From contig PAUA01000021.1 of assembly GCA_002712565.1 (NCBI GenBank), forward strand, positions 1 through 7,186: DNA of 7,186 bases, read 5' to 3'. The position numbers and the translations under genes were made by a program. The number at the start of each line of letters is the position of its first letter. Position 1 is the first letter of the stretch. The stretch is from Gemmatimonadota bacterium. Its GTDB lineage: Bacteria > Gemmatimonadota > Gemmatimonadetes > Longimicrobiales > UBA6960. The notes below the pieces were generated by a model. The model was not told the DNA's origin and made no database searches. It worked only from the letters and a program-made list of their open reading frames with translations. Shown piece after piece: positions 348 through 7,186 of the stretch.

Positions 348-540
348 GTCCTCTCCTCAATCAAACCGCGCTCAACATCCGAGACTCGCTCGGTAGGCGC
401 AAGCAGAGGAGGTCTAGGGCACACCAGCGGTGCATTTCTCCGTTCATGATCCGGCGTTAATCTCCCCCAGAATCGAGCCACACGCCGAGCTGCGCGGCGC
501 GCGCTACCAGGAACACCCGGAGGACGACGGGCGGGACTCC

Positions 541-569
541 TTGACCTCCCCGACACTCCCGCGTACGGT
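541..569 (+). promoter_or_regulatory. Candidate sigma70-type promoter of the four-gene operon
   Basis: TTGACC at 541-546 matches five of six bases of the -35 consensus. After a 17-base spacer, TACGGT at 564-569 keeps the first two bases and the last base of the -10 consensus. Transcription would begin near 576, giving a leader of about 34 bases that contains the strong SD at 595-603. Spacing and position are right but the -10 is weak, so this is a candidate only. Confidence 0.3.
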
Positions 570-594
570 TCCCGGCCCACATTCGAGCCTGTAC

Positions 595-603
595 AAAGGA
601 GGT
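595..603 (+). promoter_or_regulatory. Strong ribosome binding site deciding the start at 610
   Basis: AAAGGAGGT is a near-perfect complement of the 16S rRNA 3' end and sits six bases before the ATG at 610. It decides against longer in-frame starts such as the ATG at 430, which would place 60 non-signal residues before the signal peptide. Confidence 0.85.
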
Positions 604-609
604 ACTATC

Positions 610-1683
610 ATGTCGACCGGGAGCCGTAAGTCGAGTCTCGGAACTTTGATGTGCGCCGTCGCGGCGCTGGCAGTCATGGTTCCCGCCGAGGCAACAACGC
701 AGTCGGGCCCTAGCCCCTACCGCCTGGTGGACGACTGGGCGCAGCTGCCTGACGGAAGACCGATGGGCGCGGTCGGCAAGGTCACGATGGATCCGGACGG
801 AGATCACCTGTGGGCGGTGATCCGTTGTATCGCCCGCGGATTCGATGTGACACCGAGCCGGTTCGGCAACGAGTGTGTGGATTCCGACCTCGATCCGGTG
901 ATCAAGTTCGACCTCGATGGGAATGTCGTGGAGAGCTTCGGCGGCGGGTTGTTCATCTGGCCACACGGCATCGATGTCGACCCTGATGGCAACATTTGGG
1001 TTACTGACGCCGTGGGTTCGAACAACATCCCGGACGGTGACCAGCGGGGGCACCTCGTCTACAAGTTCGGCCCCACGGGTGAGGTGCTGCTGCGCCTCGG
1101 CACACCGGGCAGGGCCGGCAGCGGTCGTGGTGCCTTCAACTCCCCGTCCGACGTGGTGGCGGCGGACAACGGCGACGTCTTCATCGCGGACGGCCACAAC
1201 GCCACCGGAAACAACCGCGTCATGAAGTTCACGAGCGACGGTGAGTACATCATGGAGTGGGGCCAGACGGGATACGCGCCCGGGGAATTCCGTGCTCTGC
1301 ACGCCATCGAGATGGACTCCAGGGGACGGATCTTCGTCGGGGACCGGAGCAACAACCGAGTCCAGATCTTCGATCAGGAAGGGACGCACCTGGCCACGTG
1401 GACGCAGTTCGGGCGGCCGAGCGGAATCGCGTTCGACACGAACGGGCAGATCTATGTGGCCGACTCGGAGTCGGACATCGTGGAGAATCCGGGCTGGGAG
1501 ATGGGGATCCGGATCGGAGACGCCGAGACGGGCTGGGTGACGGACTTCATCGTCTACCCGTGGGGAGACCCCGCGGTCAGACTCGGAAACGGGGCTGAGT
1601 TCGTCGCGGTGGATCGCGACGGGAACATGTACGGCGGTGAGCCTGTGCCGCGTAATCTTCAGAAGTACGTACGGGTCAGGTAG
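610..1683 (+). CDS. Exported NHL-repeat beta-propeller, PAL-like (alpha-amidating lyase family relative)
   Basis: The 357-residue protein begins with a signal peptide (hydrophobic stretch about 11-24, probable cleavage after A26 or A28). The rest is a six-bladed propeller built from NHL repeats. Clear repeat cores are H119-G-I-D-V-D-P-D-G-N-I-W, S180-D-V-V plus F191-I-A-D-G, H231-A-I-E-M-D plus I241-F-V-G-D-R, and S271-G-I-A-F-D plus I281-Y-V-A-D. C73 and C89 lie in the first blade and could form a disulfide, as in bacterial relatives of peptidyl-alpha-hydroxyglycine alpha-amidating lyase (PAL). PAL binds zinc with three His from different blades. H119 and H231 occupy two such positions, but the third has E330 (E-F-V-A-V-D), so lyase activity is doubtful and a binding or scaffold role is possible. 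It is first in the operon, 29 bases before the flavoprotein gene. A paralogue lies at 6455-7186. Confidence 0.88.
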   Translation: MSTGSRKSSLGTLMCAVAALAVMVPAEATTQSGPSPYRLVDDWAQLPDGRPMGAVGKVTMDPDGDHLWAVIRCIARGFDVTPSRFGNECVDSDLDPVIKFDLDGNVVESFGGGLFIWPHGIDVDPDGNIWVTDAVGSNNIPDGDQRGHLVYKFGPTGEVLLRLGTPGRAGSGRGAFNSPSDVVAADNGDVFIADGHNATGNNRVMKFTSDGEYIMEWGQTGYAPGEFRALHAIEMDSRGRIFVGDRSNNRVQIFDQEGTHLATWTQFGRPSGIAFDTNGQIYVADSESDIVENPGWEMGIRIGDAETGWVTDFIVYPWGDPAVRLGNGAEFVAVDRDGNMYGGEPVPRNLQKYVRVR

Positions 1684-1712: not shown

Positions 1713-3164
1713 ATGACACAACCAGAATCGGACACGTCCCTCCCGGATCAGAGGGCAAGTCGGCGGAAATTCTTCAAGTTCATGGCCGCCAGTCCGCTTG
1801 CGGCCCTGGCCTACGCGGCGTGGCCGTCGAGATTGCTGGAGCAGGTCGCAGCCGAGGTGCCAAGCGGGCCACCCATGACGCCGGCACCGTTGCCCTGCGT
1901 CAACTGCGGCGCCCCGGTGCTCCCGCCCGGCATCGACGAGACTCGCGCGGTCCCGGCGATCCCTCCTCGGGCGGCGCGCCAACAGGTGCCGTATCCCCAG
2001 GAAGCCCAGGAAGAGCAGTTGATGGGGAGCCTCATTGCGGCACCCGGCGACGCGACCAATGTCTGGGACTTTGAGCGCGTGACCCATGAGAACAACCTGG
2101 CCCCGCACTGGGACTACCTGCACATGGGCGTCGACGACTACGAGACGCGCGTGGCGAACCGGGAGGGTTTCCAGCGGCTGATGCTCCGTCCCCGTCGGCT
2201 CGCGACCGAGCCCGCGAGGGGATTCAGCACGTCGACCGAGATCCTCGGACAGCAGTTCAATTCACCCCTGTTCCTCTGCCCCGTGGCGGCCCTGCAGGCG
2301 TACCACACGCAGGGGGAGGCCGGCGCCGCCCGGGCAGCTCAACGCAGGGGCCTGCTACAGCTCCAGTCGCACCAAAGCTCGCAGACGTACGAAGAGATCG
2401 CCGAGGCGCGAGGCGAGCCCCACTGGTTCCAGATCTACACAAATCCCGATATGAACGTTAATCAGCGGGTGGTCGACCGCGTGGTCAGTGCTGGCTGCCG
2501 TACACTCGTGTGGACGATCGACCTCCTCGGTGGAAGCAACCGGGAGCTGTCGCGGCGGTCCCTCGTCGGCGAGGGCAGGGACTCGGAGCTCTGCCAGCAG
2601 TGCCACCAGCACCAAGAAGGCTACGTGCGGGCAATGAACCAGAATCTAGGTGGGCCAGCCGGTGAGCGTCCTCCGTACACCTGGGACTGGGTCAATCGTC
2701 TCAAGGACCTCAGCGACATGAACCTCGTCGTGAAGGGCATCGTCACGGCGGAAGAGGCGGAGCTGGCGATCGAGCACGGCGCCGACGGGATCTACGTCTC
2801 GAACCACGGTGGACGGGCGGTGAACAGTCTGTGGTCGACGATCGACGCGCTGCCCGAAGTAGTCGCGGCAGTGAGAGGACGGGTCCCCGTGATGATCGAC
2901 AGTGGGGTCCGTCGCGGCGGCGACGTCTTCAAGGCCCTCGCGCTCGGTGCCGACGCGGTCGGCATCGGTCGGCCCTACGTGTGGGGCCTCGGAGCGTTCG
3001 GCGAGGACGGGGTCGACGAGGTGATCCAAGTGATCATGAACGAGTTCCGCATGGTCATGCGGCAGACACGGACCACCTCGATCGATCAAATCACTTCGCG
3101 CTTCGTGATGGAGGCGGAGAATCCCATCATGACGCGGCTCAACGAGTTCGGGTTCGGCCTATGA
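1713..3164 (+). CDS. Tat-exported FMN-dependent alpha-hydroxy-acid dehydrogenase/oxidase with CxxCH motif
   Basis: The product has 483 residues; SD GAGGAG at 1700-1705 is seven bases before the ATG. A twin-arginine signal (S16-R-R-K-F-F-K, then hydrophobic 23-36) is followed by a Pro-rich linker of about 80 residues. The FMN TIM barrel starts near residue 130. Compared with spinach glycolate oxidase, every key residue is kept: Y135 (Y24), Y242 in F-Q-I-Y (Y129), D270 in T-I-D (D157), R277, K341 in V-V-K-G (FMN N1), H365 and R368 in S-N-H-G-G-R (catalytic base and carboxylate binding), and the phosphate-binding D396-S-G...G419-R-P. The expected reaction is oxidation of an L-2-hydroxy acid to a 2-oxo acid, here in the periplasm because folded FMN enzymes use Tat. 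Two features are odd: C294-Q-Q-C-H298 in the mobile loop before barrel strand 5, a haem c attachment sequence, and C62-V-N-C65 in the linker. Its stop overlaps the YceI start. Substrate and electron acceptor are unknown. Confidence 0.93.
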   Translation: MTQPESDTSLPDQRASRRKFFKFMAASPLAALAYAAWPSRLLEQVAAEVPSGPPMTPAPLPCVNCGAPVLPPGIDETRAVPAIPPRAARQQVPYPQEAQEEQLMGSLIAAPGDATNVWDFERVTHENNLAPHWDYLHMGVDDYETRVANREGFQRLMLRPRRLATEPARGFSTSTEILGQQFNSPLFLCPVAALQAYHTQGEAGAARAAQRRGLLQLQSHQSSQTYEEIAEARGEPHWFQIYTNPDMNVNQRVVDRVVSAGCRTLVWTIDLLGGSNRELSRRSLVGEGRDSELCQQCHQHQEGYVRAMNQNLGGPAGERPPYTWDWVNRLKDLSDMNLVVKGIVTAEEAELAIEHGADGIYVSNHGGRAVNSLWSTIDALPEVVAAVRGRVPVMIDSGVRRGGDVFKALALGADAVGIGRPYVWGLGAFGEDGVDEVIQVIMNEFRMVMRQTRTTSIDQITSRFVMEAENPIMTRLNEFGFGL

Positions 3165-3721
3165 GGGTGGTGAGCATGACCGTGACGGCCGGCATGGTCG
3201 GCCTGGCACTGTTGCAGGCGGATCAGGCGTCCGCGTTGCAGTCTTCCGTCGATTTCACGGTGTCAGGCACTTCGACCGTACGGGGATGGACGTGTGAGGT
3301 GACGGGCTCGGCCCAGGTCGCAGCTGGCTCGGGCGCCGCAGTGCGTGGGCTGGCCGATGGAGTCCAAGAGGGCACGCTCACCGTTCCGGTAGGCGATTTC
3401 GTTTGTCCTGACGAGGAGATGACGGAACATCTTCTGGAGGCGTTGAGGCCAGACGAGTTCCCGGAGATCACCTTCCGGCTCGTGCGCTACGAGGCGAGTG
3501 GTCAGGGCGCCGTCACTACAGGTACGCTCACGATCCTCGATTCGGCCCGAGGGGTGAGCTTCCCGCTCTCGCTGACGCCCTCCGGATCGGATGTCCGGAT
3601 TGCAGGAGAGCTGGCCTTGGACATGACCGACTACGGCGTTGAGCCACCCGTGGTAATGCTCGGCCTGATGCGGGTCAGGCCACAGATTCGGATCGAGTTT
3701 TCGGGCATCATCAGCCCCTAG
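3161..3721 (+). CDS. Exported YceI-family lipid/quinone-binding protein
   Basis: The 186-residue product starts at the ATG at 3161, inside the ATGA overlap with the upstream stop, which implies translational coupling. An alternative ATG at 3176 (M6) has GGTG upstream and would shorten the signal peptide by five residues. The hydrophobic segment runs to about residue 20, with probable cleavage after A-S-A25. The mature part fits the YceI beta-barrel: S29-V-D-F-T-V near the start, T72-L-T-V-P-V-G-D-F, then M87-T-E-H-L-L-E-A-L, F100-P-E-I-T-F, G121-T-L-T-I, and a closing strand I177-R-I-E-F. Known YceI structures hold an isoprenoid chain in the barrel, and YceI genes often accompany periplasmic redox genes. 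C45 and C82 could form a disulfide. Coupling to the flavoprotein suggests that YceI carries its electron acceptor or another ligand; this role is inferred. Confidence 0.85.
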   Translation: MRVVSMTVTAGMVGLALLQADQASALQSSVDFTVSGTSTVRGWTCEVTGSAQVAAGSGAAVRGLADGVQEGTLTVPVGDFVCPDEEMTEHLLEALRPDEFPEITFRLVRYEASGQGAVTTGTLTILDSARGVSFPLSLTPSGSDVRIAGELALDMTDYGVEPPVVMLGLMRVRPQIRIEFSGIISP

Positions 3722-3771: not shown

Positions 3772-4827
3772 ATGAGAAAATCGGCATTGTTGTTCTTGTC
3801 TGTGAGCATAATGGCAGCCATTCCTTCGATGGCGTGGGCACAGCAAGAGGAATATCCCATCATCGTGGTGCCGACGGGCGAGGGCCCGTTCACGTTTCCG
3901 CAGGGCTACCAAACCCCGTGGGATCAGATCGAGATCATGGTGACAGAAAAGATGTCGCCGAATCTTTTTGTTCTGCACGGCTCGCAAGGCCTTGATCGGG
4001 GACACCCCGACGCATCAGGCGGCAGGGTCATGGTGCTCTTCGGACCGGATGGCGTCCTGCTGGTGGACACCCAGAACCGCCAGGTGGCCGACAAGACACT
4101 GGCGGCAATCCGGACGTTCACCGACGGCCCCATCAAGGTTCTGGTCAACTCGCATGTTCATTCGGACCACACGGGCGCCAACGCCTTCTTCGCGAACCAG
4201 GGGGCGTTGATCTTCGCGCAGGAAAACCTGCGGCTCGACATGATCACTCCGCGGCGTCCCAACGGCCCACCCCCGACACGCGATCCGGCCTCTGTTCCGG
4301 TGGTGACCTATCGCTACGATCCCACCGCGCCCGGCGAGCCCGCCGTCACCCTGAACATGAACGGCGAAACGGTGGATTTCATCCCGATGATGCCGTCCCA
4401 CACGGGTGGGGACACCGTCGTGCGCTTCCGCAACGCCAATGTGATCTACATCGAGGATTTCTACCGTAACTTCGGCTTCCCTTTCGCCGCTCAGACCAGT
4501 GGCGGCTCGATCCAGGGAATGATCGAGGCGATTGATCTCTTTCAGACGATCGCCGGTCCCGACACCTGGCTGATCCCCGGCCATGGCACGCTCATCCATA
4601 GAGAGGATCTCCTGCCGTATCGCGCCATGCTGGTTGACATCGTGACGAAGGTCACGGCGCGGCGCGACCAGGGCCAGTCGCTGGAGGAAGTTCTGGCCGC
4701 GAATCTGACGGCGCCGTATGAGGCCCAGGGCGACACGCAGCAGAGCAGAGATCGCTTTATCAGGGCAGTGTATGCTGAGGCGAGGGACTTTCCGCCTATC
4801 GTAAACGGCAGGCGGGCCATGCCCTAG
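3772..4827 (+). CDS. Exported MBL-fold metallo-hydrolase
   Basis: The 351-residue protein has a classic signal peptide (M1-R-K, hydrophobic 5-18, cleavage after A-W-A23). The metallo-beta-lactamase fold carries the complete dinuclear metal site: H128-V-H130-S-D132-H133, H210 in S-H-T-G-G-D, D229 in I-Y-I-E-D-F, and H271 in P-G-H-G. The preceding L96-L-V-D-T strand is also typical of the fold. It is therefore predicted to be an active periplasmic zinc hydrolase. The overall pattern matches the broad SoxH/glyoxalase II-like MBL group rather than a clinical beta-lactamase, but MBL sequence rarely gives the substrate. The residues after about 280 form an alpha-helical C-terminal extension. It is the last gene of the operon, 50 bases after YceI, with its own SD and no terminator in between. 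It may act on an ester, thioester or lactone belonging to the hydroxy-acid module; this is inferred from the context only. Confidence 0.9.
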   Translation: MRKSALLFLSVSIMAAIPSMAWAQQEEYPIIVVPTGEGPFTFPQGYQTPWDQIEIMVTEKMSPNLFVLHGSQGLDRGHPDASGGRVMVLFGPDGVLLVDTQNRQVADKTLAAIRTFTDGPIKVLVNSHVHSDHTGANAFFANQGALIFAQENLRLDMITPRRPNGPPPTRDPASVPVVTYRYDPTAPGEPAVTLNMNGETVDFIPMMPSHTGGDTVVRFRNANVIYIEDFYRNFGFPFAAQTSGGSIQGMIEAIDLFQTIAGPDTWLIPGHGTLIHREDLLPYRAMLVDIVTKVTARRDQGQSLEEVLAANLTAPYEAQGDTQQSRDRFIRAVYAEARDFPPIVNGRRAMP

Positions 4828-5723: not shown

Positions 5724-6263
5724 TTAACGCGACCGAGTTGGCAGCGTGCCTCCTTCAGCGAGGATCTTCATGCTCCCGAGTGCCCTCGTGAACGTTGCGA
5801 GCCTTCGCGCCCGGTCCGCTTCCCGGGCAGCATCGTCCGCCAGCATCGAGTTGTCGTAAATCAAGGTATAGACGAGCTTCGACGTGGTCGCCGTGACCGG
5901 CCTGGCCTCAAGGGTTCCGTGATAGAGGTCGTACGGCCGGCCCTCTCTTGGGGTCTGCGTGTAGGTATAGGAAAGCTCGGTCCGTCCCACGAGAACCTCG
6001 TTCGCGACGCTGCGCACGGAGCCGAACTCGCCCTCAACACCCGACACCATCGTACACCCCATCCCAAACCATTCTCCGATATCGCAGTACCCTCCGACAC
6101 GCTCCCACACCTCGGCCGCGGGGCGGTCGACATCGATCTCCATGGGAATGAACGTGTAGGTCGGTGATTCGACCACGATTGGGTCCTGCGCGGCGACAGT
6201 GGTGGTGGCGCAGGCGAGCGCGACCGCGCAGCTGGCGGCGATTAAGGTGAATCGATGCTTCAT
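5724..6263 (-). CDS. Exported SRPBCC (polyketide cyclase/START-like) family protein
   Basis: The 179-residue product starts at the ATG at 6263, with GGAGGG seven bases upstream. A signal peptide (K2-H-R, hydrophobic 5-19) has probable cleavage after V-A-A25. The mature region opens with a strand and E42-I-D-V-D-R-P-A-A-E-V-W, the hallmark start of SRPBCC/START-like domains (strand, then P-x-x-x-V-W helix). It continues with G57-G-Y-C-D-I-G-E-W-F and ends with a long helix (A144-R-E-A-D-R-A-R-R-L-A-T-F) that closes the hydrophobic cavity. SRPBCC domains bind lipids, polyketides or other hydrophobic ligands; some are enzymes. Most are cytoplasmic, so a secreted one is less usual. C60 and C70 may form a disulfide, consistent with export. 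It lies downstream of the second NHL gene on the same strand, with a 191-base gap. Confidence 0.82.
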   Translation of the reverse strand: MKHRFTLIAASCAVALACATTTVAAQDPIVVESPTYTFIPMEIDVDRPAAEVWERVGGYCDIGEWFGMGCTMVSGVEGEFGSVRSVANEVLVGRTELSYTYTQTPREGRPYDLYHGTLEARPVTATTSKLVYTLIYDNSMLADDAAREADRARRLATFTRALGSMKILAEGGTLPTRSR

Positions 6264-6368
6264 GAATTCCCTCCAGATGGTTTGGCACAGTTGTTCAGAT
6301 CCTGCCGCCATCCACCATGGCGCCTTCAGGCGTGTGCTGCAAGGCAGGCGACGCTACACCACCTGGTC

Positions 6369-6454: not shown

Positions 6455-7186
6455 TCATTCGACAAACTTCTGGATGCGCCCAGCCAGCTGCGCCACGAAT
6501 ACGTCTCCGGCGTCGGTTGTGGTCATTCCGTGCCCGCCGTCACCCCCCGGCAACCTTGCTAGCGCCACGCCCTCGAGGTTCCGGAGTGTGCCGCCGGTCC
6601 AGATCTGCTGTTCTTCGGTCATGAACAGGGCAGAGACGGCGCCGATATTGGGCCACTCCGCCAAGAATCCCCCGTCCGGTGCGAACACCTGCACCCGCCG
6701 GTTGTCACGATCGGCCACGTAGACACGACCCTCAGCGTCGACCACCAGATTGTGTGGAAGGCCGAACTCGCCCGGCCCGGTGCCCCGGCTGCCCCACTCG
6801 AGCGCGTACTGTCCGCCGGCCGTGTATTTGACCACGCGGGCGTTGCCGTAGCCGTCGCTCACATACACATCGCCGTTCGGGCCGAAGGCGACGTCGGTCG
6901 GTAGGTTGAACGTATTCCGGCTCATGCCCGCGACACCCCTCGAGCCAAGCTCCATCAGCACACGCCCTTGGGGGCTCGTCTTGTACACGACGTGGCCAGG
7001 CGCGTCGACCACCCAGATGTTGCCGTCCGGATCGACACGCACCGAGTGGGCCCCGCAGGCATGGCACCCGGCCGCCCCGTAGACGGCCGTGTAGCCCGAC
7101 TGCCCGGCCTCGCGATCTGCCGGCGCCATGATGATGATCTTGCCGTTGCTGAATAGGCCGTCGCCCCAAGCCCCGACGAACCCCCC
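6455..7186 (-). CDS. NHL-repeat beta-propeller, PAL-like, N-terminus beyond right edge
   Basis: The frame is open from the right edge to the TGA at 6455, with 243 codons visible. An in-frame ATG at 7129 is not the true start, because the reading frame upstream of it is propeller-like (G-A-W-G-D-G-L-F) and no SD lies at the ATG. Visible NHL repeat cores are H47-S-V-R-V-D-P-D-G-N-I-W, P96-T-D-V plus V108-Y-V-S-D-G-Y, H145-N-L-V-V-D plus V156-Y-V-A-D-R-D, and H219-G-M plus V229-F-V-A-Q (numbered from the first visible codon). The three His fall at equivalent blade positions, as for the zinc ligands of peptidyl-alpha-hydroxyglycine alpha-amidating lyase. The operon paralogue at 610 lacks the third. 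A C41-H-A-C44-G-A-H47 cluster sits next to the first His. Signal peptide and full length cannot be seen. Family assignment is firm; catalytic activity is not. Confidence 0.85.
   Translation of the reverse strand, partial: GGFVGAWGDGLFSNGKIIIMAPADREAGQSGYTAVYGAAGCHACGAHSVRVDPDGNIWVVDAPGHVVYKTSPQGRVLMELGSRGVAGMSRNTFNLPTDVAFGPNGDVYVSDGYGNARVVKYTAGGQYALEWGSRGTGPGEFGLPHNLVVDAEGRVYVADRDNRRVQVFAPDGGFLAEWPNIGAVSALFMTEEQQIWTGGTLRNLEGVALARLPGGDGGHGMTTTDAGDVFVAQLAGRIQKFVE

Follow-up and report, generated by a model that had tools for sequence, protein, structure and literature searches.

A predicted haem c attachment site on the active-site lid of exported FMN-dependent alpha-hydroxy-acid dehydrogenase-like proteins

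Flavocytochrome b2 (EC 1.1.2.3, L-lactate:cytochrome c oxidoreductase) is a member of the FMN barrel family in which a haem serves as the exit for electrons. This haem is b-type, has His/His ligation and lies 0.53 nm from FMN (excerpt of PMC6472588), and it occupies a b5-like domain of its own at the N terminus. Glycolate oxidase and L-lactate oxidase share the barrel and its catalytic residues, use oxygen as acceptor, and have neither a CxxCH sequence nor a noted export signal. In the membrane enzymes of the family, (S)-mandelate dehydrogenase and LldD, acceptor specificity is tied to loop 4, which is longer in S-mandelate dehydrogenase; final acceptors across the family include oxygen, cytochrome c and quinone, and a cyt-b5 domain or a longer loop 4 stretch has been used to recognise misplaced members (excerpt of PMC8491902). 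The excerpted part of that source makes no mention of CxxCH.

Electron transfer from flavin to haem c also occurs in gluconate dehydrogenase, p-cresol methylhydroxylase and flavocytochrome c, which have other flavin folds and hold the c-type haem in a subunit or a distinct cytochrome part; the same review excerpt groups flavocytochrome b2 under haem b and describes c-type cytochromes in enzyme complexes (PMC6472588). Engineered lactate oxidase-haem c complexes, built by fusion or SpyTag, conduct electrons from the lactate oxidase barrel to haem c on a separate cytochrome (excerpt of PMC9915066). Among the matches listed in open-access full text, with subscription literature mostly outside that scope, no report of c-type haem in the FMN_dh family was found.

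The window, which is the whole stretch of 7,186 nucleotides that was analysed, encodes an exported FMN-dependent alpha-hydroxy-acid dehydrogenase-like protein of 483 amino acids in an intact open reading frame (1713..3164, + strand). The sequence bears out the first-pass annotation in placing CQQCH at residues 294-298 of this protein (C294-H298, 2592..2606, + strand), within loop 4 of the barrel domain, and this is the predicted haem c attachment site. It is likely, on the sequence comparisons below, that the protein is a one-domain periplasmic flavocytochrome c, in which the active-site lid of an FMN-dependent 2-hydroxy-acid dehydrogenase would itself carry covalent haem c. Like the engineered complexes, such a protein would link a lactate oxidase-type barrel to haem c, and this compact design of flavin and haem c lid appears to be described nowhere in the literature searched.

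Export signal and catalytic residues

The protein matches PF01070 (FMN_dh) with 339.7 bits in a Pfam scan (cut-off 24.9), and all of its NCBIfam matches fall under their cut-offs, including that to the LldD model NF033901 (179.8 bits, cut-off 550). Judged by name, the best PDB matches of both this protein and a Methylobacterium relative are lactate and glycolate oxidases; flavocytochrome b2 is represented by the match 1fcb. Pfam detected no cytochrome c domain in the protein and no cytochrome b5 domain (PF00173, E 0.001), in agreement with the earlier proposal that, unlike flavocytochrome b2, it has no separate haem domain. A Gemmatimonadetes MAG has an identical copy of the gene (L001, 100% identity) on its contig PCCM01000112.1.

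A twin-arginine signal motif, SRRKFFKF, occupies residues 16-23 (1758..1781, + strand), where the first-pass annotation had seen an export signal. Its residue R18 is invariant in the 433-row homologue set wherever present, and an RR pair occurs within the first 70 residues of 346/360 database proteins, with KR in 6 more. The signal suggests that the protein, as predicted from its sequence, is exported by the Tat system to the periplasm.

All six residues of the active-site set, Y135, Y242, D270, K341, H365 and R368, are present in the alignment, and we take them to match Y24, Y129, D157, K230, H254 and R257 of glycolate oxidase. Y135 (2115..2117, + strand), placed by alignment with relatives, is presumably the counterpart of Tyr24 of glycolate oxidase and of Tyr143 of flavocytochrome b2. 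The latter residue contacts a haem propionate in flavocytochrome b2. K341 (2733..2735, + strand), presumably the flavin/active-site lysine, is kept in all rows of the 434-row set, as is R368 of the H365-G-G-R368 segment (2805..2816, + strand), in which we take H365 to be the catalytic histidine and R368 the substrate-binding arginine. With these residues the protein should, as predicted, oxidise small 2-hydroxy acids with FMN. Proline is aligned at H365 in 3 of the 120 proteins P0241-P0360, where CxxCH is still there; all others of the 434-row set have H365.

Conservation and position of the CxxCH motif

Two sets of relatives document the constancy of the motif. In the closest set, comprising the window protein and 120 database proteins of 100-60% identity, C294, C297, H298 and H300 are identical in 120/121 rows, and the remaining row, P0114, has a gap. 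A second set of 80 genome loci, the best 80 of 215 confirmed, was retrieved with the peptide patterns GRPYVWGL and A[IVT]NVWD[FM]E, neither of which holds CxxCH; here the two cysteines and the histidine are kept in 79/79 aligned rows down to 38% identity, and the invariance of residues 421-425 is partly due to the retrieval patterns. L001 (the window's own gene) and the frameshifted L036 were left out of these 79 rows, as were the fragments L035, L037 and L040-L042 from the larger alignments. The 80 loci come from Gemmatimonadota, Acidobacteriota, Pseudomonadota and Verrucomicrobiota, together with one Actinomycetota MAG (L033) that nests among Acidobacteriota in the tree.

The 434-row set adds two more searches from distant members to the earlier rows, and its 360 database proteins, being the best 120 from each of three CxxCH-bearing queries, lean towards the clade. 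CxxCH is present in 433 of these rows, with 73 different dipeptides between the cysteines; the sole exception is again P0114, whose loop is deleted in frame and whose gene lies on a 1,536-base contig. With P0114 left out, C294, C297 and H298 are identical in 433/433 rows, down to about 38% identity, so the free variation of these residues among signal-bearing homologues that would have spoken against the first-pass annotation was not seen. Positions 295 and 296 accept 14 and 13 residue types, respectively, and the three motif residues are the only invariant positions in columns 285-312. Across the alignment, full invariance is seen in 33 of the 375 well-filled columns, among them R18, H132, C294, C297, H298, Y242, D270, K341 and R368. 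In a protein that carries an export signal, two cysteines with a histidine right after the second and free residues between them make up the haem c attachment signature. Judged by these alignments, the CxxCH of the exported FMN proteins is not a product of chance, and a covalent haem on it is highly likely.

Ordinary members of the family differ in this respect, as had been claimed of typical oxidases: CxxC is absent from the first 8 ordinary FMN_dh relatives compared, E. coli LldD among them, and CxxCH is absent from the 30 highest-scoring FMN_dh loci in 100 Pseudomonadota genomes.

CQQCH follows the WTID270 strand and precedes the VVKG342 strand. In lactate oxidase, loop 4 spans residues 173-222 and links strand 4 with helix 4, and residues 200-215 form the lid (excerpt of PMC4908395). 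In an alignment with the Aerococcus enzyme, with numbering counted from R181, C294 comes at or near residue 198, and C297-H298 fall in a gap of three residues that follows residue 200; in so variable a loop this placing is approximate. By this alignment the motif would sit at the known active-site lid, approximately where the first-pass annotation had put it. The distance from D270 to K341 is 71 residues in the window protein and in L082, 94 in E. coli LldD, 61 in L193 and 62 in L101. Loop 4 is thus elongated in LldD but not in the window protein, where its length does not exceed that of an ordinary member and is about 10 residues above that of the nearest outside relative, L193.

Genes for haem c maturation, which the first-pass annotation had proposed to look for, are present in part. 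PF01578 (CcmF/CcmC/CcsA) was found in 15/15 member-holding genomes, CcmE in 10 and ResB in 5, although in genome G003 the ResB match reached no better than E 7e-4. CcmE is present in all three Methylobacterium genomes, and those of Blastocatellia, Opitutae and Verrucomicrobia carry ResB and lack CcmE; in the window's own MAG (2.2 Mb) and in G004, PF01578 stands alone, with neither CcmE nor ResB. This distribution fits haem c weakly, because many bacteria carry such genes.

Candidate ligands and the proposed electron path

H132 (2106..2108, + strand), located three residues ahead of Y135, is a candidate distal haem ligand. It is histidine in 432/432 CxxCH rows that have a residue there, and the residue at this position in eight ordinary members is V, L, I, R or A, one of them being gapped in one of two alignments. 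A second table, from which L129 and L137 were left out, gives His at 132 in 18/18 CxxCH rows versus 0/56 other rows. A profile search of 149 genomes yielded 30 loci, 9 with CxxCH and all of these with H132, and 21 with neither; a search of 396 genomes yielded 27 loci, 24 with CxxCH, again all with H132, and 3 without CxxCH. These tables share some genes (for example, L143 = L014, L168 = L100 and L172 = L171). Overall, His at 132 occurs in 2/59 rows without CxxCH (0/56 plus 2/3), and these two, the near-identical pair L194 and L195, mean that H132 is not exclusive to CxxCH proteins. L194 and L195 carry a twin-arginine motif, have histidine in place of Y135 as well (HFAH), and are placed elsewhere in the tree.

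The CxxCH proteins form one side of a branch with support 97/92.8 in a 92-row tree. In a quick 55-row tree, L193 branches directly outside the CxxCH clade (support 99 for the joint group and 95 for the clade); it retains the twin-arginine-like signal RRQFFRFLAASPLL, H365, R368, K341, Y242 and PYVWGL, and has neither CxxCH nor H132, with Ala at 132. L171, inside the clade, presents the reverse: R368 is gone (STHAAH for SNHGGR), as are Y135 and the Y242 region, and the signal, H132 and CNSCH are retained, although this is a single case. Since L193 is without both H132 and the motif, and L171 has both despite its lost substrate residues, H132 is, on the aligned sequences, associated with the CxxCH motif and not with the substrate site.

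L171 is a decayed Acidobacteriota paralogue (1489-2745, + strand of its own locus) that may be a haem protein lacking the dehydrogenase function; the 396 genomes searched contained no close relative of this paralogue. Two further proteins, L100 and L101, combine a twin-arginine motif with Val at 132 and no CxxCH, and their placement is unsure: the 92-row tree sets them beside the clade with a very long branch, the 55-row tree among other proteins. L101 (in two frames) and G003:C1:5179635-5180435 are acidobacterial FMN_dh genes with a twin-arginine motif and no CxxCH, each paired in tandem with another FMN_dh frame, which is degenerate.

Two other residues were considered as ligands. M308 (2634..2636, + strand), the second choice, was rejected as the sole distal ligand, as it is present in only 407/433 rows and missing in 26; H300 was rejected because it occurs in 40/79 rows and is limited to the close group. 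The chance that H132 serves as the distal ligand is rated somewhat better than even.

In the proposed scheme, the protein would fold with FMN in the cytoplasm and leave by Tat; once outside, the mobile loop 4 would still be accessible, and the Ccm or Ccs machinery would attach haem to C294 and C297, a late step that a mobile lid would suit. H298 would be the proximal ligand and H132 the distal one. Substrate would reduce FMN, and electrons would pass from FMN to the haem and on to a soluble cytochrome c; for the window's subgroup, a quinone on a neighbouring YceI protein may be the acceptor instead. It is unusual for a Tat substrate to receive haem. Cytochrome-c-containing nitrate reductase, considered as a single-chain precedent for Tat export with haem c, was not borne out in the excerpt of PMC12780646.

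The strongest rival holds that a zinc or copper ion, coordinated by C294, C297, H298 and/or H132, staples the lid to the barrel with no haem involved. The joint invariance of Cys, Cys, His and His would suit a metal site, and metals can hold lids; however, CxxCH is an unusual geometry for one metal ion, and a histidine always right after the second cysteine, with free residues between the two, is the rule for haem c, so that this reading is improbable. Less probable still is a disulfide or redox thiol pair at C294/C297 governing lid movement, which would be natural for an exported protein, given that CxxC pairs make disulfides, but which leaves the invariant H298 and its coupling with H132 unexplained. 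A single four-cysteine metal or iron-sulfur site joining C294/C297 to C62/C65 (CVNC, 1896..1907, + strand) has a negligible chance: all four residues are invariant in the closest set (C62/C65 in 118/121 rows and C294/C297 in 120/121, the remainder being gaps), but 44/79 CxxCH rows have no residue aligned at C62/C65, which disfavours the site for the family as a whole, and in 16/360 database proteins there are no cysteines besides the CxxCH pair, so that a site needing more cysteines cannot be general.

Covalent haem c on the lid is thus preferred to these alternatives. Its fullest form, for which we put the chances at about even, would be a one-domain flavocytochrome c that is widespread and bears a bis-His (H298/H132) covalent haem on the mobile lid of its FMN TIM barrel; one loop would then tie substrate entry to FMN-to-haem transfer, and assembly would take two steps, FMN binding and folding before Tat export and haem attachment to the protruding lid afterwards. 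If the proposal is true, proteins named in databases as hydroxy-acid or 4-hydroxymandelate oxidases would pass electrons into periplasmic transport through a haem of their own, and peroxide would not be a necessary product. The family would gain a further change of acceptor, beside the fused b5 domain and the longer loop 4, and again at or near the lid. Such proteins would also allow haem c attachment to be examined on a chain that Tat exports in the folded state, and would be a natural counterpart of the engineered lactate-oxidase-haem-c complexes for direct-electron-transfer electrodes (excerpt of PMC9915066).

N-terminal cysteines, YceI and other neighbours

The N-terminal CVNC pair belongs to the close subgroup only and occurs in 35/79 rows of the 80-locus set; its absences in the closest set are 3 gaps. 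Directly downstream, a YceI-family gene (3161..3721, + strand; PF04264, 5e-14) has an ATG that overlaps the stop codon of the FMN gene, with a second in-frame ATG at 3176. YceI lies downstream on the same strand, 0-522 bases off, in 35/80 loci, and two cysteines are kept in all 35 of these FMN-linked YceI proteins. Among the 35 YceI-linked FMN proteins, 31 have the N-terminal pair (as CxxCG), and the other four comprise two fragments (L035 and L042) and two proteins without the pair (L024 and L043); no YceI match was found for L003, L021, L023 and L029, in which the pair is present and the downstream sequence extends for at least 3 kb. YceI proteins often carry ubiquinone-8 or other isoprenoids (excerpt of PMC9113575), which makes a quinone carrier possible as acceptor; that a YceI-held quinone accepts the electrons in the window's subgroup would be a guess.

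The scan of neighbour families covered 10 proteins from 7 loci, and a general cytochrome partner gene was sought among the neighbours and not found. By tblastn (E 1e-12), a PQQ dehydrogenase neighbour was matched in 14/80 loci, with an identity of at least 79% in 5, and a glucose/sorbosone-dehydrogenase-like neighbour in 6/80. At L045, the FMN gene starts where a PQQ-domain gene ends, and this PQQ-domain gene matches cytochrome c weakly (26.9 bits, cut-off 27).

Further genes in the window include a metallo-beta-lactamase-fold protein (3772-4824, + strand), whose best NCBIfam match is the PQQ-linked SoxH_rel_PQQ_2 at 63.5 bits, under its cut-off of 280, and an SRPBCC/polyketide-cyclase-like protein (5727-6311, - strand; PF10604, 21.3 bits, under the cut-off of 27.4). 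NHL-repeat beta-propeller genes flank the region at 478-1680 (+ strand) and 6458-7129 (- strand), and the latter has CHACG close to the start of its open frame.
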